DNA of 36,040 nucleotides. It comes from Pseudomonas sp. BN411 (GTDB taxonomy: Bacteria > Pseudomonadota > Gammaproteobacteria > Pseudomonadales > Pseudomonadaceae). The stretch is from contig NZ_SSOM01000062.1 of the NCBI RefSeq assembly GCF_029871235.1, positions 1-36,040 on the forward strand. Direction: 5' to 3'. The notes under the pieces were generated by a model. It was not told the DNA's origin and made no database searches. It saw only the letters and a list, made by a program, of their open reading frames with translations. Shown piece after piece: positions 7,254 through 18,715 of this stretch; the first letter of the stretch is position 1, and every line of letters starts with the position of its first letter. Made by a program: the position numbers and the translations under genes.

Positions 7254-8132
7254 CTATTGAACGTCCTGATAGAGCCCCGGCAACTCGTAGCGCAGGCCGT
7301 AGGCGGCGTAGAGCTTTTCCATGCGGCCGTCACGCACCATGCCGTCGAGGGTTTCTTCCACGGCGTTGGCGAGTTGGCGATTGCTCTCGTGCACCGCCAT
7401 ACCGATGTCCCATTCGGGCTGGCCGAGGTTGGGGTAGGTGTTGTCGGCGTTGAGAATCTGCGGGTCGTGGGCCTGGTGCTCCAGCCAGTCCAGCTCCCCG
7501 CGCAGGGCCATCACCGCGTCCACCTCACCCTTGCGCATGCCTTCGAAGGCCGCCGCCGGCCCCGGATAGTGGTGGGTATTGCGCGACAGGCGCCCAGCGA
7601 ACACCGAGGTGAGGTAGAAGGACGGCACGCTTTCCAGTTCCACGCCGATGGGATGGAACTGGAACACCCCGATGCTCGGCACCTCGGGCAGGCGCCGACT
7701 GTCGTAGGCCACCTGCCAGCGTTCGCGCTGGTACGGACCGAACATCACCACCTGCTCGTTGGCCAACTCGCCCACGTCGTTGCGCTTCTGCGAGTAGTCG
7801 CGGTCGTAAGGCACCCGCAGCATCACATCGGCGAGCACGCCGGGACGCATGTAGTGCCCCTTCCAGATGAAGTTGCGCAGGTCATCGTCAAGCCGTTCTC
7901 CCGGCGTGACCCAGAGCAGTTCCAGCTTCAGCCCGAGCCCCTCGGCCAGGGCGTTGGCAAGGTCGATATCCACCCCGCGCGCCTTGCCGTCTTCCTTGAA
8001 GCTGTAGGGCGCGAAGTTCTCGTAGACGGCCACCCGCAGCACGCCCGAGTCGACGATGTCGTCATAGGGGCGCACCTGTGCCTGCGCCAGAGGCAGGCAC
8101 AGCAGCCAGCACAACAGAACCAGCAGGCGCAT
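7254..8132 (-). CDS. Quinoprotein dehydrogenase-associated periplasmic solute-binding protein (MoxJ-like)
   Basis: A 292-aa family-3 type solute-binding protein: signal peptide 1-18 (LCWLLCLPLAQA), then LRVAVYENFAPYSF, GVDIDLANALAEGLGLKL and GEVDAVMALRGELDW, typical of the two-lobed fold. It belongs with MoxJ-like proteins that accompany PQQ dehydrogenases. MoxJ is needed for methanol dehydrogenase maturation, so a role in assembling the dehydrogenase or handling metal or PQQ is more likely than nutrient uptake; no ABC permease is adjacent. It corresponds to PP_2676 (called pedG) in P. putida by position. I chose the ATG at 8132 (MRLLVLLCWL) because it gives a proper signal peptide; it begins 5 bp after the cytochrome stop, implying co-transcription from the cytochrome promoter. 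Confidence 0.87.
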   Translation of the reverse strand: MRLLVLLCWLLCLPLAQAQVRPYDDIVDSGVLRVAVYENFAPYSFKEDGKARGVDIDLANALAEGLGLKLELLWVTPGERLDDDLRNFIWKGHYMRPGVLADVMLRVPYDRDYSQKRNDVGELANEQVVMFGPYQRERWQVAYDSRRLPEVPSIGVFQFHPIGVELESVPSFYLTSVFAGRLSRNTHHYPGPAAAFEGMRKGEVDAVMALRGELDWLEHQAHDPQILNADNTYPNLGQPEWDIGMAVHESNRQLANAVEETLDGMVRDGRMEKLYAAYGLRYELPGLYQDVQ

Positions 8133-8137
8133 GGCGA

Positions 8138-8575
8138 TCACTCGTCCACGTGCACGCTTTCCAGGTAGGTGCGGATGGCCCAGAGCGCTTCCTGGCTCAG
8201 GTAGTCGGCCATCTTCGGCATGTACACCGCCCCGTCGCGCACCGCACCATTGATCACCCGCTCCTTGAACCACTCATCGCCGCTGGCGTCGGTTTCCAGG
8301 AAGCGCAGGTCGGGCGCGATACCACCGGACTTGGCTTCCAGGCCATGGCAGCGCGCACAGTTCTGGTTGTAGGCGGAAGAACCGATCTCAACCGCCAGGT
8401 CATGCTGGGCATAGGGCGCGCGGTAGGGGTTTTCCTCACGCCACTCCTTGCCCAACTGCTCCAGGCCTTCGGTGTTCACTGCCTGGGGCACCACGTCGCC
8501 GTGGGCCAGGACGATTCCGCTGAGGGTCAGACCGGCCAGGAATGCGAGGCCGCGCAGTGCGCTGTTCTTGTTCAT
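8138..8575 (-). CDS. exaB: Cytochrome c550, electron acceptor of the PQQ alcohol dehydrogenase
   Basis: A 145-aa exported class I cytochrome c. The signal peptide is residues 1-24 (LAGLTLSGIVLA), the heme motif CARCH is C73-C76-H77, and the axial Met is probably M119 or M122 in VYMPKMADYL. It takes electrons from the periplasmic quinoprotein and feeds the terminal oxidase. I chose the ATG at 8575 (MNKNSALRG); GAGG lies 9 nt upstream and the longer reading frame lacks cytochrome-like sequence. It is the first gene of a four-gene minus-strand operon: cytochrome, solute-binding protein, SoxYZ-like carrier, metallohydrolase. The P. aeruginosa homologue is exaB and the P. putida one pedF. Two tandem operator copies precede it. 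Confidence 0.92.
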   Translation of the reverse strand: MNKNSALRGLAFLAGLTLSGIVLAHGDVVPQAVNTEGLEQLGKEWREENPYRAPYAQHDLAVEIGSSAYNQNCARCHGLEAKSGGIAPDLRFLETDASGDEWFKERVINGAVRDGAVYMPKMADYLSQEALWAIRTYLESVHVDE

Positions 8576-8631
8576 CACGTACATCCTCATTAGCTGTGCA
8601 AGGCGGCGCCCCGGTGAGGCGCTGTGAGGAA

Positions 8632-8696
8632 ATGGTAAGAAGCCCCCGATCACACCCCCATCCTGCTTTGGTGGCTTGGCCCTACTTCCTTGGTAG
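8632..8696 (-). promoter_or_regulatory. Cytochrome c550 operon promoter with tandem operators
   Basis: A minus-strand -10 TACCAT (8637-8632) has a degenerate operator, ATCCTGCTTTGGTGG in plus orientation (8660-8674), centred exactly 30 bp upstream. A strong operator, CTACTTCCTTGGTAG (8682-8696), lies 22 bp further, two helical turns, so both would face the same side of the DNA. The -35 region is poor (TGGGGG), which suggests activator dependence. The predicted start near 8625 leaves a leader of about 50 nt. Confidence 0.65.
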
Positions 8697-8744
8697 TAGT
8701 GCGGGCGGAGGCAAACGAAAGGCCCGCAGGCAGCAATGCAAACG

Positions 8745-8790
8745 GGCACGCGCGAGCGTGCCGGCGAATGGCTGGAGGCCATTCGCCGGC
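8745..8790. repeat. Two overlapping perfect hairpins
   Basis: GGCACGC-GCGA-GCGTGCC (8745-8762) is a 7-bp stem with a GNRA-type loop. GCCGGCGAATGG (8760-8771) pairs perfectly with CCATTCGCCGGC (8779-8790). They share 8760-8762, so both cannot form fully at once. They follow the first 44-aa gene by 37 nt on the minus strand without a T-tract. A transcript end or stabilising structure is possible; a REP-like element is the alternative. Confidence 0.5.
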
Positions 8791-8826
8791 GAGCGAGTGC
8801 GGTGAAAGCGAGAGAGGCCAGGCTAT

Positions 8827-8961
8827 TCAGTTGGCTCTGGAGTGCAGAGCCAAGGGAGGAAGATTTTGGCCGGCCAGGTCGCTGGAGGCCCTGGCGAGTT
8901 CAAACTCGAGTACGCAGCAGAGCACCAGTAGCGGAAACAGAAGATGCTTGATGACGAGCAT
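8827..8961 (-). CDS. 44-aa hydrophobic peptide 1, paralogue of the one at 10605-10739
   Basis: A short gene starting at ATG 8961 with AAGGGG 8 nt upstream. The product begins MLVIKHLLFPLLVLCC and then has a polar tail ending HSRAN, so it has one membrane-spanning or signal-like helix (about residues 3-18). The second peptide (starting MRILKHLLLPLLL) has the same length and shares M1, K5, H6, L7, L8, P10, L11, L12, L18, F20 and S26. Of the seven codons for K5-H6-L7-L8-P10-L11-L12, five differ between the genes yet encode the same residue, which points to selection on the protein. It has its own operator and -10 with spacing identical to the second copy. Function is unknown; it matches no family I recognise. 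Two vicinal cysteines (15-16) are absent from the paralogue. Confidence 0.65.
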   Translation of the reverse strand: MLVIKHLLFPLLVLCCVLEFELARASSDLAGQNLPPLALHSRAN

Positions 8962-8994
8962 GGCGGAATCCCCTTGAAGGTTCCTGTGTCCGTC

Positions 8995-9037
8995 ATGCTA
9001 GGGCTCAGCCTCCTGGCTGACCTTGCTACCTTGGTAT
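8995..9037 (-). promoter_or_regulatory. Promoter and operator of peptide gene 1
   Basis: A minus-strand -10 TAGCAT (9000-8995), preceded by CCC, lies exactly 30 bp from the centre of TTGCTACCTTGGTAT (9023-9037, plus orientation), whose core TACCTTGGTA equals that of the 10798 site. CCCTAGCAT here and CCCTAGGAT at the paralogue are nearly identical, with the same spacing. The centre would fall at about -42. There is no recognisable -35. Confidence 0.65.
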
Positions 9038-9161
9038 CGCCTGGGTAATACCTTCGTGGCGCACAATTCCGCCGCCTCTGGCGGCAGCCCCGTCGGAGAC
9101 AGCGGCGGGCGCATTCGCAGCAGCGCCAAATCATGGGCCCCGGCATGCGCAGGATCAGTCC

Positions 9162-9213
9162 GTAGGATGTGGCGGGCGGCGCTCCGCTGGAGCGCAGCGA
9201 TACCCATCACCTG
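9162..9213. repeat. Half copy of the GTAGGATG palindromic repeat
   Basis: GTAGGATGTGGCGGGCGG followed by GCTCCGCTGGAGC and GCGATACCCATCACCTGTGAGC matches one arm of the element at 5478-5549. The pairing arm is missing. The surrounding 9038-9319 shows no gene. Confidence 0.6.
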
Positions 9214-9319
9214 TGAGCATTGACGCATCAGAAGCGCCCTACGCCCCGACCGCCTTGTAGTCCTACAGGCCCCACCGATAGCGTCTCGCCCCGTTGTGGC
9301 TTCGGCTGCAACCGGGCTT

Positions 9320-9481
9320 AGAACCCCCGAAAAATCGACACGCACATCGCCATAAGCGAGATCGGAGTGCTGCCCGCCAGCGCAACGAATCTCGGTTGTC
9401 TATGGCGGACCGTGCATGGGTGGGCTTTTGCCCACCGGTTTCGTGCGTATCGACCGGGGTTCTAACCCTGCACGGTCCGCC
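9320..9481 (+). ncRNA. Structured leader region upstream of the BRO-N gene, with two mutually exclusive folds
   Basis: Fold 1 is a cloverleaf: outer stem GGCGGACCGTGCA (9404-9416) with TGCACGGTCCGCC (9469-9481), a perfect 13 bp, enclosing GGTGGGC-TTTT-GCCCACC (9419-9436), a weaker arm GGT/ACC (9437-9439 with 9453-9455), and GGGT-TCTA-ACCC (9457-9468). Fold 2 uses the same bases differently: AGAACCCC (9320-9327) pairs with GGGGTTCT (9456-9463), CGCAC (9341-9345) with GTGCG (9443-9447), CGCCATA (9348-9354) with TATGGCG (9401-9407), and CGAGAT (9357-9362) with ATCTCG (9389-9394). Such a switch suggests a regulatory 5' leader for the downstream leader peptide and BRO-N gene. That it is transcribed is inferred. 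It is not a tRNA: the stem is too long and there is no proper anticodon or T arm. Confidence 0.5.
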
Positions 9482-9530
9482 ACCCTTTCCCGCGGTGGCG
9501 GCTACTCAGTTCCGAACATGGAGTTTGAAC

Positions 9531-9608
9531 ATGAGAGCCCCAACCCTGTATTTGCGCCCCTCTGGCGCCCTGCCCCTCCACCTCCGCCAGGAGGTGCGCC
9601 ATGACTGA
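9531..9608 (+). CDS. 25-aa leader peptide overlapping the BRO-N gene
   Basis: A short frame starting MRAPTLYLRPSGALPLH and ending RQEVRHD. GGAG lies 7 nt before its ATG. Its end carries the AGGAGG ribosome site of the next gene and overlaps that gene's start by 8 nt, a classic arrangement for translational coupling. Whether the peptide itself has a function is unknown. Confidence 0.5.
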   Translation: MRAPTLYLRPSGALPLHLRQEVRHD

Positions 9609-10074
9609 CTACCGCACACCTACGCGCTTCCAGCGTTTCCGCCTGCCACTGCGCGCCCTGCTGATCGACGACCGCGCCTGGTTCGTCAGCCGCGACCTGG
9701 CGAAGCTGGCCAGCATCCGCACCGATACCGACTTCACCCGCAAGCTGGACGAGGACCAACTGCGCGATGAGCTGATCCTTCTGGAGGACGGCGGCTTCAG
9801 CCTGGAACGGTTGGTGAACGAGAGCGGGCTGCACCAGTTGCTGCTGGTGCATTACTACCACCCGGAGCATCGTGGCCTGCGCCGCTGGATCACCGACGAA
9901 GTGGTGCCCGGCCTGGACCGGGAGCACGCCCAGGGCCAGCAGCCGCGCCGCCGGCTGATGAGCTGGCAGGGCCAGCCGCTTAACCTGATGGAGTGGCAGG
10001 GCACGCTGTGGATTCGCTATGAGGATATGCCTCGCTTCCAGGGGCAGGTGCCGGAGAGGAAGGCATTGTTGTGA
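9601..10074 (+). CDS. BRO-N domain protein (phage antirepressor-like)
   Basis: A 157-aa protein. Residues about 12-110 resemble the BRO-N fold of phage antirepressors: LLIDDRAWFVSRDLAKLA, then LLEDGGFSLERLVNESGLHQLLL and LRRWITDEVVPGL. BRO-N domains bind DNA and usually occur with a C-terminal effector; here only about 45 residues follow (WQGQPLNLMEWQGTLWIRYEDMP), with no known effector domain. The ATG at 9601 has AGGAGG 6 nt upstream. No integrase, repressor or other phage gene is adjacent, so it is an isolated cassette made of structured leader, short peptide and BRO-N gene. It may be a domesticated regulator; its target is unknown. Base composition is like its neighbours. Confidence 0.75.
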   Translation: MTDYRTPTRFQRFRLPLRALLIDDRAWFVSRDLAKLASIRTDTDFTRKLDEDQLRDELILLEDGGFSLERLVNESGLHQLLLVHYYHPEHRGLRRWITDEVVPGLDREHAQGQQPRRRLMSWQGQPLNLMEWQGTLWIRYEDMPRFQGQVPERKALL

Positions 10075-10105
10075 GCCGTACATTCGCTACGTGACCACGG
10101 CACCT

Positions 10106-10575
10106 TGTGGGAGCGAATTTATTCGCGAGTAAACATCCACGTTCGTAGAACGTGGACTTGCTTTTGGCCCCCTATAAGGGGGCATCTCGGAGCAGGCTGA
10201 CCAATCGTAGCTCGGCTGCAATCCGGGAGCGGCGGTGGGATAGCCCCGGATTTCATCCAGGCTACGGACTGCTGGCTGCCGCATAACCTCCGTAGGATGG
10301 GTGGAGCTTGCGATACCCATGCGGACAGAGCTGATGGGTATCGCTTCGCTCCACCACATCCTACGAACGTCTACCTGATACCTGGGCAGCCCAATCGTCA
10401 CAGGCAGAGCCGATGACTCATGACCACGCCCTAAGGACGTGGTTTCCCGAGTTCAAATGAATTCGCCCCCACAGGATGAGTGCCCCGCCGGCACTCGGCT
10501 GCCCGTAGGGTGCGCCGTGTGTTCAGCCGGGGGCCAGCTTCGCTGTCCTTGGCGAATGAATTCGCGCCTACAAGG
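10106..10575. repeat. Gene-free stretch with REP-like repeats
   Basis: I see no convincing gene from 10075 to 10604. REP-like units occur at 10106-10126 (TGTGGGAGCGAATTTATTCGC), 10455-10475 (inverted, AATTCGCCCCCACAGG) and 10551-10575 (GGCGAATGAATTCGCGCC). A separate imperfect palindrome at about 10207-10265 joins GCAATCCGGG with CCCCGGATTTCATCC. A half copy of the GTAGGGTGCGCC element lies near 10505. The REP at 10551-10575 is downstream of peptide gene 2 on the minus strand and may end its transcript. Confidence 0.7.
10292..10364. repeat. 73-bp palindromic repeat, GTAGGATG family, second full copy
   Basis: The left arm GTAGGATGGGTGGAGC and GCGATACCCAT pair with ATGGGTATCGC and GCTCCACCACATCCTAC. 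It is the element of 5478-5549 in the opposite orientation, with arms about 90% alike and a different central spacer, as expected for a mobilised or repeatedly copied intergenic hairpin. Confidence 0.85.
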
Positions 10576-10604
10576 TGAGTAATGACCTGCGCCGACAGGG
10601 CGCT

Positions 10605-10739
10605 TCAATCCTTCAGCCAGATGACCGGTAACACCGAGGTACTGCCCTGGGGGTGGATGCCGGAGGGGCCGACGCGGTCGAAGCCGAGCAGGCTGAGGAT
10701 CAGCAGCAAAGGCAACAGCAAGTGTTTGAGGATGCGCAT
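10605..10739 (-). CDS. 44-aa hydrophobic peptide 2, paralogue of the one at 8827-8961
   Basis: The ATG at 10739 has AAGGA 8 nt upstream. The product begins MRILKHLLLPLLLILSLL, one hydrophobic helix, followed by a polar tail GFDRVGPSGIHPQGS and the end LPVIWLKD. Length is exactly that of peptide 1, and the KHLL-PLL core is shared with mostly synonymous codon changes. The tails differ in sequence. It is transcribed divergently from the pedA1 operon, and one operator lies between the two promoters, so both should respond to the same regulator. It may be a small membrane or exported peptide linked to the dehydrogenase or transporter; no function is known to me. Confidence 0.68.
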   Translation of the reverse strand: MRILKHLLLPLLLILSLLGFDRVGPSGIHPQGSTSVLPVIWLKD

Positions 10740-10769
10740 GGACGGCTTCCTTCTGGTTTTTGTTTGATC

Positions 10770-10840
10770 ATCCTAGGGCCTCGTCGCCGCCCGCCTTCTA
10801 CTACCTTGGTACCGCCCGACCGGTACTTTCTTCATATTTC
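10770..10840. promoter_or_regulatory. Divergent promoters sharing one operator (peptide gene 2 / pedA1 operon)
   Basis: The operator CTACTACCTTGGTAC (10798-10812) is centred at 10805. On the minus strand the -10 TAGGAT starts at 10775 and on the plus strand TATTTC starts at 10835, each exactly 30 bp away. Both predicted centres are near -42, with no good -35 on either side. One activator dimer on a near-palindrome could serve both directions. Confidence 0.65.
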
Positions 10841-10891
10841 CCAGGCCCTGCCCCATTCCTATGCTGGCTCCACGTTCAGAGGAGCCATGAA

Positions 10892-12088
10892 ATGCGCCAT
10901 TACCTGCTCCACGGCCTAACCTACTTGCTGGCGCTGACCAGCGCCGCCCTGGTCGCGACACATGTCCACGCTGAAGACGACGGCCTGGAGGTGCGCATCG
11001 GCTATCTGGCCTGGGAGCCCGCGCGCGGCCCGCTGTTGTCCAACGTGATTCCCGAACCGGAAGATGCCGGCCTGCGGGGTGCCGAACTCGCCATCATCGA
11101 CAGCAACAGCACCGGCCGCTTCGTCAAGCAGAGCTACGCGCTGAGCGCCGTGCGCACCGGCACGCCCGAGGCGTTGCTGACCCAGGCGCGGGCGTTGCAT
11201 GAACAGGGCCTGCGCCTGTTCGTGGTCAACGCCCCGGCGAAGGAGCTGCTGCAACTGGCCGATGCCCTCCCGGACAGCCTGCTGTTCAACGCCGGCAGCG
11301 CCAGCGACGAGCTGCGCGGTGCAGAGTGCCGCGCCAATCTGCTGCACAGCCTGCCCAACCGCGCGATGCTGGCCGACGCCCTGGCGCAGTTCCTCGCCAC
11401 CCGCCGTTGGCAGCGCTGGCTGCTGGTGACCGGCGAAACGCTGGACGACCTGGCCTACGCCTCCGCCCTGCGCCGCTCCGCCGGGCGCTTCGGCGCGAAG
11501 ATAGTCGAGGAGAAACCCTGGACCTTCGACAACGACCAGCGCCGCAGCGCCCAGGCGGACATGCCGTTGTTCACGCAGGCCAGCGAGTACGACGTGGTGC
11601 TGGTGGCGGACGAGCGCGGCGATTTCGGCGAGTACCTGCCCTACAACACCTGGTACCCGCGCCCCGTGGCCGGCACCCAAGGCCTGACCCCCACCGGCTG
11701 GCACAAGACGGTGGAAACCTACGGCGCCGCCCAGTTGCAGAAGCGTTTCGAAGCACTGTCCGGGCGCTGGATGAACGACCGTGACTTCGCCGCCTGGATT
11801 GCCGTGCGCAGCATCGCCAGCGCCGTGACCCGCCTGAAGAACGCCGACGCCCAGGCCATCCGGGCCCTCGCGCTGTCCGCCGACCTGCCGCTGGATGGCT
11901 TCAAGGGCCGCAAGCTGAGCTACCGCGACTGGGACGGCCAACTGCGCCAACCCATTCCCCTGGTGCAGCCACGCTCGCTGGTCAGCACCTCGCCCCAGGA
12001 CGGTTTCCTGCACCCGGTGAGCGAACTGGACAGCCTGGGCTTCGACCGCCCCGAGAGCAACTGCCACCGCTTCACCGCCGCCAACTGA
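10892..12088 (+). CDS. pedA1: PQQ-catabolism-associated periplasmic substrate-binding protein of the PedA1A2BC ABC system
   Basis: A 398-aa exported protein. The signal peptide is about 1-27 (LLALTSAALVATHVHA). The body resembles branched-chain-amino-acid-type periplasmic binding proteins (LRGAELAIIDSN, LRLFVVNAPAKELLQLAD, RWLLVTGETLDDLAYASALRR). It matches the binding-protein family that accompanies PQQ alcohol dehydrogenases. In P. putida the pedA1-A2-B-C system is reported to be required for lanthanide-dependent growth, which fits the PedH-type enzyme here; the ligand is not proven. I chose the ATG at 10892 (MRHYLLHG) because AGGAG lies 7 nt upstream and the signal peptide follows. The symbol is assigned by gene order. 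Confidence 0.82.
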   Translation: MRHYLLHGLTYLLALTSAALVATHVHAEDDGLEVRIGYLAWEPARGPLLSNVIPEPEDAGLRGAELAIIDSNSTGRFVKQSYALSAVRTGTPEALLTQARALHEQGLRLFVVNAPAKELLQLADALPDSLLFNAGSASDELRGAECRANLLHSLPNRAMLADALAQFLATRRWQRWLLVTGETLDDLAYASALRRSAGRFGAKIVEEKPWTFDNDQRRSAQADMPLFTQASEYDVVLVADERGDFGEYLPYNTWYPRPVAGTQGLTPTGWHKTVETYGAAQLQKRFEALSGRWMNDRDFAAWIAVRSIASAVTRLKNADAQAIRALALSADLPLDGFKGRKLSYRDWDGQLRQPIPLVQPRSLVSTSPQDGFLHPVSELDSLGFDRPESNCHRFTAAN

Positions 12089-14993: not shown

Positions 14994-17228
14994 ATGTACC
15001 TTCCGAGAGACGCGTCAAGGGCACGCCTCAGGGAAGCTGAACATGCACGGAAGAATTTCGCTGACCTGGCGAATGCCTTTACTAAAGGGGAAGTCACACG
15101 ACGCGACTTCATCAAATGGGGCTTGGCGACTTCCAGTGGCTTGCTGGTTCCCGTACACGGCCTGACTCCCTTCTCCAGCAGCGCCTACGCGGAGACGTTC
15201 GACATCCCCACGGGGTTGTCACCCAGCCCACTGTTCGGCGTACAACCTTTCACCCAACCGATGCCACGCTTCGATGTACTGCCCCGCAAGGCCTTCACCT
15301 TCGGCGCGGGTGTGATGAACCCCATTCCCGCATTTCCGCGCGTGCCCGGCCCTGACCCGACCGAACAGGCCAACACCAAGCAGCAACCGGTTCCCGCCGT
15401 ACTGGGCGGTGGCACCGGCCCCATCGAGGGACGGCCACCGGGACCGATCTGGGCCCACCAGCAGTGGACGAATTTCCCACCCCAGGTAGCGGTGGAGGTC
15501 ACCCAGGAGGGCGCCAAGCCCAACACTGTCTACAACCCCGGTGTGCCGTCGAGCCTGAACTCCGGCATCAACGCTTCTGCGGCCTTCAAGCCGCGCTTCC
15601 ACCCCAACCTGCCGGACCAGGGACCGCTGGCGTTATGGACCTTCAATGGCACCCTGCCGCCCAAGCTGCTGATCGGCCGTTATCACGAGTCGATCCTGTT
15701 CCGTCACCACAACCGTCTGCCGGATGATCCAGCGCAGAACGGAGGCTTCGGTATCCACACCATCAGTACCCATGAACACAACGGCCACCATGGGGCGGAG
15801 AACGACGGATTCACCGGGGCCTATTTCTTCCCCCGGCAGTATTACGACTACCACTACCCGATCTGCCACGGTGGCTACAACACCGTCAACACGGGCGCCA
15901 ACGACCCGCGTTGTGGTTCGCCCGACGATGCCGGTGGTATCGAGAACGTCCAGGGTGACTTCCACGAAACCATGAGCACCCACTGGTTCCACGACCACAT
16001 GTTCAGCTTCACCTCGCAGAACGTGTACAAGGGCAACGCCGGGATGTTCAACATCTACAGCAGCCTGGACCGCGGCAACGAGGAGTTGAACGACGGCGTG
16101 AACCTGCGCCTGCCCAGTGGCTCGGCCAAGTCGTTCGGCAACCTCGACTACGACGTGAACCTGATGCTCGCCGACAAGGCCTGGGACCAGGACGGCCAAC
16201 TGGCGATGGATATCTTCGACTTCGACGGTTTCCTCGGCGACGTGATGACGGTGAACCTGGTCTACAAGCCGTATTTCGAAGTGGAACGGCGTAAGTACCG
16301 CTTCCGCATCCTCAATGCGGCGGTGGCACGGTTCTTCAAGCTGGCCCTGAGCGATGCCTCGCCGATGATCCAGATCGCCAACGACGGCAACCTGCTGCCA
16401 ACGCCGGTGGTACTCAACACGCTGGACGAAATGGGCATCGCCGAGCGCTACGACATCGTCATCGACTTCAAGCGCTACAAGGTTGGCGACAAAGTGTGGT
16501 TCGTGAACCTCGCCGAACACGAAAATGGCCGGCGGCCGAAAGAGGACCTGTCCCTGCGCGAAGCGCTGTCGGGCAACTCCAGCGATCCCTGCGTGGGCCG
16601 TTTCCTTGAGTTCCGCATTGTGCGCGACCCGGCGCGGCCCGATGTCAGCCAGGTACCGGACAAACTGATCCAGAACCCGGACTTGACCAGGATACCGGTA
16701 GCCGCCCAGCGCACCTTCGAGTTCGGCCGTGGGGCGAAGCAGAACAGCTCCGACCCGATTACCAGCTTCCTGGGCCCGTGGGGCATCAAGGTCGACGGGG
16801 TAACCACGCTGGCAGCGGACTTCGGTCGGATTTCGGCCGGACCGCGTTTCGGCACCCGCGAGATCTGGACCTTGAGGAATGGTGGCGGCGGCTGGGATCA
16901 CCCGATCCACATCCACTTCGAGGAGGGCCAGATCCTCGCCCGCGACGGCAAGGCGAGCAACGTGCCGGCCTGGGAACGTGGGCGCAAGGACGCCTACCGC
17001 CTGCACCCTGGAGGCAGCGTCACGCTCACCATGCAGTTCCGCGACTTCGGCGGGATGTTCATGGAGCACTGCCACAACACCACGCACGAAGACAACGCCA
17101 TGCTCTTGCGCTGGGAAATCGACGATGCCGGCGGCGCCTTCCTGCGACCGTTGCCAACGCCGATACCAACGCCGCAGGGCGTGAAGTTCGTGCCGCCTGA
17201 CGAGATCCTGCCCACCGCGTTCCGCTAG
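14994..17228 (+). CDS. Tat-exported multicopper oxidase
   Basis: A 744-aa three-domain multicopper oxidase. A long N-region (1-35) precedes the twin-arginine motif TRRDFIKWG (R36-R37) and a hydrophobic stretch ending near SSAYA. All copper motifs are present: HEH (260-262), HWFHDH (330-335), HPIHIH (636-641) and HCH-H-M (H692, C693, H694, H698, M703), giving T1, T2 and T3 sites. The T1 axial ligand is Met. Such enzymes reduce O2 while oxidising metals (Cu+, Mn2+, Fe2+) or phenolic compounds; bilirubin-oxidase- and manganese-oxidase-type activities are possible, and I cannot choose. The gene starts an operon with a SCO1-cytochrome c fusion 9 bp downstream, which would supply copper or redox chemistry. 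It interrupts the usual ped gene order and is probably an insertion. Confidence 0.9.
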   Translation: MYLPRDASRARLREAEHARKNFADLANAFTKGEVTRRDFIKWGLATSSGLLVPVHGLTPFSSSAYAETFDIPTGLSPSPLFGVQPFTQPMPRFDVLPRKAFTFGAGVMNPIPAFPRVPGPDPTEQANTKQQPVPAVLGGGTGPIEGRPPGPIWAHQQWTNFPPQVAVEVTQEGAKPNTVYNPGVPSSLNSGINASAAFKPRFHPNLPDQGPLALWTFNGTLPPKLLIGRYHESILFRHHNRLPDDPAQNGGFGIHTISTHEHNGHHGAENDGFTGAYFFPRQYYDYHYPICHGGYNTVNTGANDPRCGSPDDAGGIENVQGDFHETMSTHWFHDHMFSFTSQNVYKGNAGMFNIYSSLDRGNEELNDGVNLRLPSGSAKSFGNLDYDVNLMLADKAWDQDGQLAMDIFDFDGFLGDVMTVNLVYKPYFEVERRKYRFRILNAAVARFFKLALSDASPMIQIANDGNLLPTPVVLNTLDEMGIAERYDIVIDFKRYKVGDKVWFVNLAEHENGRRPKEDLSLREALSGNSSDPCVGRFLEFRIVRDPARPDVSQVPDKLIQNPDLTRIPVAAQRTFEFGRGAKQNSSDPITSFLGPWGIKVDGVTTLAADFGRISAGPRFGTREIWTLRNGGGGWDHPIHIHFEEGQILARDGKASNVPAWERGRKDAYRLHPGGSVTLTMQFRDFGGMFMEHCHNTTHEDNAMLLRWEIDDAGGAFLRPLPTPIPTPQGVKFVPPDEILPTAFR

Positions 17229-17237
17229 GAGGTCGCC

Positions 17238-18203
17238 ATGGGCGGCTTGAAATGGCTGGTACTGCTGGCCGTCAGTGCGCTGACGGCCAGCGGGATTGCG
17301 CTCGCTGCGCAGCCCTGGGGCCCCGGGTACTTCCCCGATGTGCCTCTGATCACCCAGGACGGCCAAACCGTACACCTTTATCAGGACCTGCTGAAAGGCA
17401 AGCTGGTGGCGATAAACATGATCTTCACCTCCTGCCCGGACAGCTGCCCACTCAGCACGGCCAACCTGGCCAGAGTGCAGAAACAGCTAGGAGACCAGGC
17501 CGCGAACATCCACTTCTACTCCATAACCGTCGACCCCGAGACCGACACGCCGGAGGTGCTCAAGGCCTATGCCGAGAAGTTCCACGCGGGGCCGAACTGG
17601 CTGTTCCTGACCGGCAAGCCGGAGGACATTCGCCTGGCGCAAAGGAAGCTGGGGCTGTGGTCCAGCACCGATGCCGAGGACCCGGACGCACACCTGACCA
17701 GCCTGTCGGTAGGCAATGAAGCCACTGGCCAGTGGATGCGGCAATCCACCCTGGACAACCCCAATTTCCTCGCGGCCAAGCTCAGTACCTTCCTGCTGGG
17801 CTGGCAGAACCAGCGCGGAGTGGCTACCCAGAGCTATACGAACGTGCCGCCCATCACCAACCCCGACGCCGGCCGCCTGTTGTTCCGCAAGACCTGTGCG
17901 GCCTGCCACACCATCGGGAAGGGCGAGGCGCTGGGACCCGATCTGCGAGGGGTGACCACGCGGCGCGACAAGGACTGGTTGCGGCGCTTCATCAAGGCCC
18001 CAGACCAGATGCTGGAGCAAGGGGACCCGATTGCCGTGGAACTGTTCAATCGCCACAACCAGGTGCGCATGCCCAACCTGCACCTGGGTGACGAGGATGT
18101 GGAGGCGCTGATCCACTATCTCGAACAACAAGGCACGACCCCATCGGGGCAATCGGAGTCGCCGCCCCTACCGCCGAGCGAGGGCAGCCTGGCGACCCCC
18201 TGA
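17238..18203 (+). CDS. SCO1/SenC copper chaperone fused to cytochrome c
   Basis: A 321-aa exported or membrane-anchored protein: hydrophobic N-terminus (5-24), then a SCO1/SenC thioredoxin-like domain with copper-binding TSCPDSC (C66, C70) and a candidate third ligand H152, then from about 205 a class I cytochrome c with CAACH (C220, C223, H224) and axial M278 in VRMPNLHLG. A proline/serine-rich tail ends the protein. SCO proteins deliver copper or reduce thiols at copper enzymes; the attached cytochrome suggests direct electron exchange. Coupling to the multicopper oxidase 9 bp upstream implies it matures that enzyme or takes part in its electron flow. AGGAGG lies 6 nt before the ATG. Confidence 0.9.
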   Translation: MGGLKWLVLLAVSALTASGIALAAQPWGPGYFPDVPLITQDGQTVHLYQDLLKGKLVAINMIFTSCPDSCPLSTANLARVQKQLGDQAANIHFYSITVDPETDTPEVLKAYAEKFHAGPNWLFLTGKPEDIRLAQRKLGLWSSTDAEDPDAHLTSLSVGNEATGQWMRQSTLDNPNFLAAKLSTFLLGWQNQRGVATQSYTNVPPITNPDAGRLLFRKTCAACHTIGKGEALGPDLRGVTTRRDKDWLRRFIKAPDQMLEQGDPIAVELFNRHNQVRMPNLHLGDEDVEALIHYLEQQGTTPSGQSESPPLPPSEGSLATP

Positions 18204-18220
18204 GGGTCGAGGAGGTACAG

Positions 18221-18715
18221 ATGAACATCAATCGAAGGCATCTACCCGCCGCACTGCTGACCTTCGCCGGTCTGGTGGCTGCCACGGCATCGGGCATCGC
18301 CAATGCCCTGCCGCTGTTCACGCGCAGGGCAGACCAACTGGTGATCCCCATCGCCGGCACCGTGACCACCGCCACCGAGGACATCAGCCTGAATGGCACC
18401 GCACGCATCAGGAGCACCGGATTCAGCGACCCCGACTTCAATGGGCCGCCGGGGGCCATCCTGTTCATCGACTTCCTCAACGTGGTGGGGGCCGGACTGA
18501 CCAGCAAGACCCGCTTCTTCGCTCATGGCGAGAACCGCGTGGTGCGTGAACTGCGCCCGACCGACGTGGTGGAGCTGACCTTCCTCATCACACCGGTCAA
18601 CGCCAAGGCCACGGCGGTCGCTATCCCCGTGCTGGCCACCTTCCAGCTGACCTTCAACGTCGACCAGGGCCAGCTCACTGCCGCTACAGCGAGCTTCTCG
18701 ACGCCTGACTTCTGA
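18221..18715 (+). CDS. Exported protein of unknown function in the multicopper oxidase operon
   Basis: A 164-aa protein I do not recognise. Residues 1-29 look like a signal peptide (LPAALLTFAGLVAATASGIANA) with a basic NINRRH start. The rest is beta-rich with alternating hydrophobic residues (LVIPIAGTVTTAT, GAILFIDFLNVVGAGL, LTFNVDQGQLTAATASF) and has no cysteine, no histidine cluster and no metal motif. It starts 17 bp after the SCO-cytochrome gene with GGAGG upstream, so it is part of that operon and may be a periplasmic partner of the oxidase. Confidence 0.7.
   Translation: MNINRRHLPAALLTFAGLVAATASGIANALPLFTRRADQLVIPIAGTVTTATEDISLNGTARIRSTGFSDPDFNGPPGAILFIDFLNVVGAGLTSKTRFFAHGENRVVRELRPTDVVELTFLITPVNAKATAVAIPVLATFQLTFNVDQGQLTAATASFSTPDF

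Follow-up and report, generated by a model that had tools for sequence, protein, structure and literature searches.

Our analysis suggests that P1 and P2, two 44-residue peptides encoded in the PQQ-alcohol cluster of Pseudomonas sp. BN411, are probably free-standing membrane micropeptides that arose from a secreted cupredoxin-fold protein, here called LONG, by retention of its signal-peptide end. Signal peptides are usually seen as disposable; here several lineages have kept one after losing its cargo, and it is approximately as conserved as a neighbouring transporter protein. In relatives, the peptide is encoded by the first open reading frame (ORF) in the operon controlling the rare-earth switch between PedE and PedH. 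The window, i.e. the whole 36,040-nucleotide stretch of DNA that was analyzed, is one whole contig of a 6.37-Mb assembly.

Each peptide gene stands behind one exact copy of the operator (Table 1), as the preliminary description had held, and both lie on the minus strand, a point left unstated there; the plus-strand reading of both stretches contains a stop. The common promoter and ribosome-site layout claimed for the two genes was likewise borne out, in that boxes of the form CCCTAGSAT lie 23 nt from the operator at both and purine-rich ribosome sites end 8 nt 5′ of each ATG. A scan with the sigma-70 consensus gave no match at either promoter-like box. Five of the seven codons for shared core residues, counted by eye, differ synonymously, as had been stated. 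Judged by eye, the P1 leader has a possible cleavage site between ARA and S, and no cleavage site is evident in the P2 leader. Weak terminator-like hairpins follow P1 (four in the region, against 1.6 expected), and pedF is the next gene on the same strand; P2 is followed by the BRO-N gene, and its operator also faces the divergent pedA1-like gene. The exact 10-base operator occurs six times in the assembly: twice in the window, once before a third leader copy on another contig (C75) and three times elsewhere. Operator sites on contigs C40, C43 and C53 were considered as extra peptide genes and rejected, because no leader-like ORF stands behind any of them. Two matches at E ≤ 0.5 came from an Rfam scan of positions 8000-11500, and both lie outside P1 and P2.

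Table 1. Coordinates of P1, P2 and associated features in the window.
Feature	Coordinates	Strand	Remarks
P1, 44-aa ORF	8961..8827	-	hydrophobic leader, tail like mature N-terminus of LONG
P2, 44-aa ORF	10739..10605	-	hydrophobic leader; tail ..VLPVIWLKD
Operator TACCAAGGTA of P1	9036..9027	-	exact; 75 nt above P1 ATG
Operator TACCAAGGTA of P2	10811..10802	-	exact; 72 nt above P2 ATG
Promoter-like box CCCTAGCAT of P1	9003..8995	-	read from sequence
Promoter-like box CCCTAGGAT of P2	10778..10770	-	read from sequence
PQQ_ABC_bind, PedA1 by gene order	10868..12088	+	TIGR03863, 505.8 bits
pedF, cytochrome c-550	8138..8575	-	TIGR04494, 216.1 bits
BRO-N gene	9601..10074	+	PF02498, 26.7 bits

Among 5.8 billion proteins, P2 has 20 homologues and P1 has two at E ≤ 10; those of P2 are 40-44 residues long and come, where an organism is given, from Metapseudomonas or Pseudomonas. 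Matches to P2 (E ≤ 1) occurred in 43 of 95 relatives, the strong ones within the genus of the window, while many of the weak ones are probably noise. The family profiles of P1 and P2 match each other (hhalign probability 97.1%, E 6.9e-11), which, together with the homologues, upholds the proposal that the peptides are paralogous, conserved, membrane-type and under one operator. P1 was found in the window and in 10 loci fetched from the same genus, always near pedF and in five of those loci divergent from a second quinoprotein dehydrogenase gene; it is absent from the near relative G008. Neither a lack of orthologues nor common frameshifting was seen in the loci read, which had been found via intact leader matches. 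No Pfam or NCBIfam family matched P1 or P2 at E ≤ 10, and the peptide was not found in the open-licence PMC literature on ped genes, coupling and small or truncated proteins.

LONG is a 145-residue secreted protein with a cupredoxin fold (mean pLDDT of the model 72, from 17 sequences) and carries the database names 'copper-binding / cupredoxin domain-containing protein'. The protein (L054:6323-6757 and relatives), encoded directly ahead of PedS2, is without conserved Cys or His. Homology to its N-terminus extends over 42 columns of P1 and 29 of P2, and the likeness includes the operator, spacing and slot. Unlike LONG, the peptides lack the entire secreted β-sandwich domain, since both ORFs stop at 44 residues. 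In the genome of the window, the LONG domain was unmatched at E ≤ 1e-5 and the leader alone was matched at E ≤ 0.01. P2 combines homology to the LONG N-terminus with the operator and the slot that the divergent pedA1-like gene marks in relatives; P1 lies elsewhere, beside pedF. LONG is divergently upstream of pedA1 in all 24 LONG loci with pedA1 read, and a kinase, PedS2 by gene order, follows it directly in 20 of the 24 loci. The order in relatives is LONG or the short peptide, then a sensor kinase, a LuxR-type regulator, a pentapeptide protein and a quinoprotein dehydrogenase. Ser stands two residues past the Asp of the pattern TPNDAWDFSG at all 10 loci where this pattern was found in that dehydrogenase, and the pattern had no match in the window's own dehydrogenase. 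Dehydrogenases of the calcium type are marked by Ser at this position and those of the lanthanide type by Asp. Judged by the gene order in the available sections of PMC12997753, the four genes are pedS2, pedR2, pedD and pedE, and the order in relatives reads pedA1-(x)-pedS2-pedR2-pedD-pedE, where x is the peptide or LONG. The gene table of this 2026 review, as available, gives no gene between pedA1 and pedS2, and PP_2670 is not mentioned in four ped papers, including the available parts of PMC6115532 and PMC12997753. In another family, f37, a close LONG stands beside pedA1 in six of six genomes and a kinase is next in three of the six (loci of ~3 kb); a seventh, remote match (G595) adjoins neither. 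Because the f37 loci have LONG beside pedA1, sometimes with the kinase, and signal peptides quite unlike the KxLLLP leader, LONG is taken as ancestral. These sequence comparisons show that LONG held the place between pedA1 and the kinase-regulator pair before the short peptides did, and that P1 and P2 descend from it.

Genome comparison also shows repeated truncation of LONG with its leader kept: in several lineages the secreted domain has gone, and the operator, promoter box, ribosome site and ~21 leader codons stay. Of 398 genomes of the family, 163 contain pedA1 (E ≤ 1e-50); 88 of these have LONG, 54 have the leader without LONG and 21 have neither, with the leader set taken at about E ≤ 1e-4. 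Seventeen of the last 21 were read, and the operator was present in all and the leader in none. On a pedA1 tree of 94 loci built by a quick method (53 short, 24 long, 17 none), the long and short states require four changes, three of them forced by starred branches; the number drops to three if L054 and L057 are omitted. A count of at least four separate truncations was dropped, since its label mixed truncation with loss of the whole gene. The tails that follow the leader are clade-specific, reading ..VLPVIWL(D/E)E in most Metapseudomonas types, from which the WLKD tail of P2 in the window has drifted, and having two Cys near the end in the g9 group. WL(D/E)E may be a peptide motif, or its last codons may hold the ribosome site of the kinase (GGAGGAGTGA in L046). 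Eight genomes of the g14 group have tails of repeats that we take to be REP-like, and some other tails read as translated next operator. The open REP-like tails were given no weight, because each of the eight would be open by chance with a probability of 0.15-0.43 and the tails are related.

In relatives, the short ORF characteristically ends at the start of the kinase gene. This was found in 35 distinct loci, including the third copy on C75, with a distance from stop to kinase start of -4 to +15 nt (median 2); these loci come from 36 short rows, since L220 repeats L056 from the same genome. The corresponding distance for 18 LONG is -1 to 57 nt. Start codons for these counts were chosen by script, and the LONG loci L067 and L184 were left unassigned. 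In all 10 leader-less loci with a kinase, the kinase starts 71-80 nt from the operator, and six of these kinases begin MRV or MRL, as the leader does; judged by these positions, translation of the leader-less kinase seems to start at the initiation site of the leader. The geometry resembles by analogy that of cbrX-cbrA in Pseudomonas putida, for which translational coupling has been measured; according to the sections available of this source (PMC6591292), CbrX has 58 residues, overlaps cbrA by 17 nt and is predicted to reside in the inner membrane. The likeness, as far as those sections go, is that a short hydrophobic ORF leads into a sensor-kinase gene, and it applies to the peptide's relatives. 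CbrX has two predicted helices and no paralogues, whereas the P1/P2 family has one leader helix; unlike CbrX, as described there, the family derives from a secreted protein, has been repeatedly truncated and includes free-standing copies away from a kinase. A leader acting purely in cis, whose translation opens the PedS2 start while the peptide itself is inert and P1 and P2 are idle relics in this genome, would explain why tails can be exchanged for one another with the stop remaining next to the kinase start and why leader-less kinases start at the leader's place. We consider it unlikely, because the leader is conserved at the amino-acid level, as described below, and P1 is conserved in 11 genomes without an adjoining kinase.

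P1 and P2 themselves are not kinase-coupled leader ORFs, as a kinase is absent downstream of both; unlike in the PedS2-PedR2 loci of relatives, the kinase of this genome adjoins neither. A single PedS2-like kinase is present, on contig C75, behind the operator and the third leader copy, which is 30 residues long, has two prolines in its core and ends 15 nt before the kinase. That contig carries the degenerate leader, the only PedS2-like kinase and a PedE-like dehydrogenase (L039, 63-1213 and 4836-6907), and ORFs at its start look like transposase. Because PedS2 is encoded on another contig behind a degenerate copy, P1 and P2 are regarded as free-standing, operator-driven membrane micropeptides, and P2 and its duplicate P1 could act solely in trans. 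P1, which is never beside a kinase, is the best case for such a role. The slot is without a kinase in 20 genomes, of which 19 have no PedS2-like match anywhere at E ≤ 1e-60; 18 of the 19 keep the short peptide and G009 keeps LONG. PedS2 therefore cannot be the partner of the peptide in those 18 genomes, and in all 19 (G008, G015, G012, G007, G013, G011, G009 and 12 others, each with a pedA1 cluster) a lanthanide switch, if any, would need another sensor.

We propose that a regulator of the alcohol-oxidation cluster would bind the putative operator, that ribosomes would begin at the leader, and that the hydrophobic segment would enter the inner membrane as a signal anchor (P2) or a cleavable signal (P1). 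Where PedS2 follows, ribosomes would re-initiate on the kinase, and the leader would in that case both set kinase output and give a membrane peptide in equal dose. The target of P1 and P2 in trans would most likely be PedS2, or else a different membrane component of the PQQ-alcohol system. The loss of the peptide in 21 of 163 genomes, the 18 short-peptide genomes without a PedS2-like gene and the lack of a kinase downstream of P1 and P2 here count against this explanation. More tentatively, LONG could have been a secreted accessory of PedS2 that repeatedly lost its domain, its signal peptide being kept as a working micropeptide that left the operon and acts in trans. If this were true, lanthanide sensing would involve LONG as a third component, for which the micropeptides would serve as a minimal substitute. 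PMC6115532, in the parts available, describes direct versus partner-mediated lanthanide sensing by PedS2 as open and leaves room for an 'uncharacterized indirect interaction'. LONG is a candidate periplasmic partner of this lanthanide-switch sensor, and the periplasmic protein and the micropeptide encoded just before the kinase provide named, deletable candidates for that role. The earlier suggestion of export-linked signals survives only in so far as the peptides derive from a signal peptide.

The neighbours of P1 and P2 form a PQQ-alcohol cluster with genes for a quinoprotein dehydrogenase, SoxH- and SoxYZ-like proteins, PedF, PQQ_ABC_bind, a beta-propeller protein, an ATPase, PedC and a CXXCW protein; pedF has an operator-like site of its own at 8686-8695. 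Membrane complexes are known to include small hydrophobic subunits, and the shared operator and cluster would suit the idea, put forward in the preliminary description, that the peptides are small subunits or assembly factors of the dehydrogenase, the cytochrome or the PedABC transporter. We find this doubtful: operator and leader are present in 7 of 13 leader-positive genomes without pedA1, which weakens the case for a PedABC subunit in particular, and what held the slot earlier is an exported protein, encoded in front of a kinase. The operator-plus-leader pattern was not found in the other six (L151, L152, L159, L160, L164 and L218), which may for that reason be false matches. A subunit or assembly factor is less supported than descent from a leader of the PedS2 operon.

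Selection on the peptide, as first claimed, holds for the leader codons, which look to be under purifying selection, and not for the whole 44 residues, as the tails are weakly constrained; conservation is concentrated in the ~21-residue leader. dN/dS was pooled over Nei-Gojobori pairs with Jukes-Cantor correction, the leader being codons 2-21. For the P2-type leader it was 0.097 (12 genomes, including L053, without L052) versus 0.180 for pedA1 in the same genomes; for the short leader of g9, 0.150 versus 0.187 (18 genomes); and for that of g14, 0.123 versus 0.108 (19 genomes, from 19 of 20 rows). These pooled values for leader and pedA1 in the same genomes indicate roughly equal conservation of the short leader and pedA1. 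The g14 leader evolved faster than pedA1 in both subsets (0.108 versus 0.073 with REP-like tails, 0.176 versus 0.093 in the others), which counts against our explanation. The P1 leader gave 0.184 (11 genomes, including that of the window). The leader of LONG evolves about twice as fast as the mature part, at 0.366 and 0.178, respectively, over 377 close pairs and 0.156 and 0.087 over the 142 closest. Tighter constraint after truncation was considered and dropped, since LONG leaders in the closest pairs are already at 0.156. The P2 tail gave 0.78 and its last 12 codons 0.56 (uncorrected; 12 genomes, including L052, without L053), and the tail of the 52-residue g9 form gave 0.344. By group, leader values were 0.128, 0.155 and 0.215 in kinase-less genomes and 0.061, 0.168, 0.108 and 0.110 beside a kinase; recent kinase-less pairs had too few substitutions to demonstrate selection once the kinase was lost.

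In the P2 set used for tails, variable leader columns at codon positions 1, 2 and 3 number 9, 4 and 14, and an RNA-level cause of conservation was ruled out because third positions vary most. The non-synonymous fraction, over pairs that are not independent, was 0.262 for P2 (11 genomes, without L052 and L053) and 0.436 for P1 (11 genomes); the lowest values among 200 simulation runs were 0.653 and 0.689, respectively. The leader is free of stops in both the P2 set (12) and the P1 set (11), each found by leader matches. That the peptides are decaying, functionless debris of LONG would fit the nearly neutral P2 tails, the absence of the gene from 21 of 163 genomes and the shortened, proline-bearing third copy, but is improbable given the uninterrupted leaders of sets found by leader matches, the variability of third codon positions and non-synonymous fractions below the simulated minima, albeit over non-independent pairs.

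Between pedC and the CXXCW gene, positions 14994-18715 (+) encode a multicopper oxidase, a SCO1-cytochrome fusion and a 164-residue protein without a Pfam or NCBIfam match; this block is present in L043-L046, matched in part in L050 and not found in L047-L049, L051, L053 and L055. By synteny, the BRO-N gene occupies the place of pedS2-pedR2-pedD-pedE of several relatives. Its own relatives lie near ped genes at L053:11114-11581 (86% identity), L069:14736-15149 (49%) and L044:6057-6527 (98%), in positions that differ among these genomes, as of a repeated visitor of the ped cluster. Just 5′ of the BRO-N gene, between P1 and P2, lies a C4 antisense RNA (RF01695) at 9398-9487 (+), with 58.1 bits against a gathering threshold of 45 (E 6.8e-10); C4 antisense RNAs are phage immunity RNAs.
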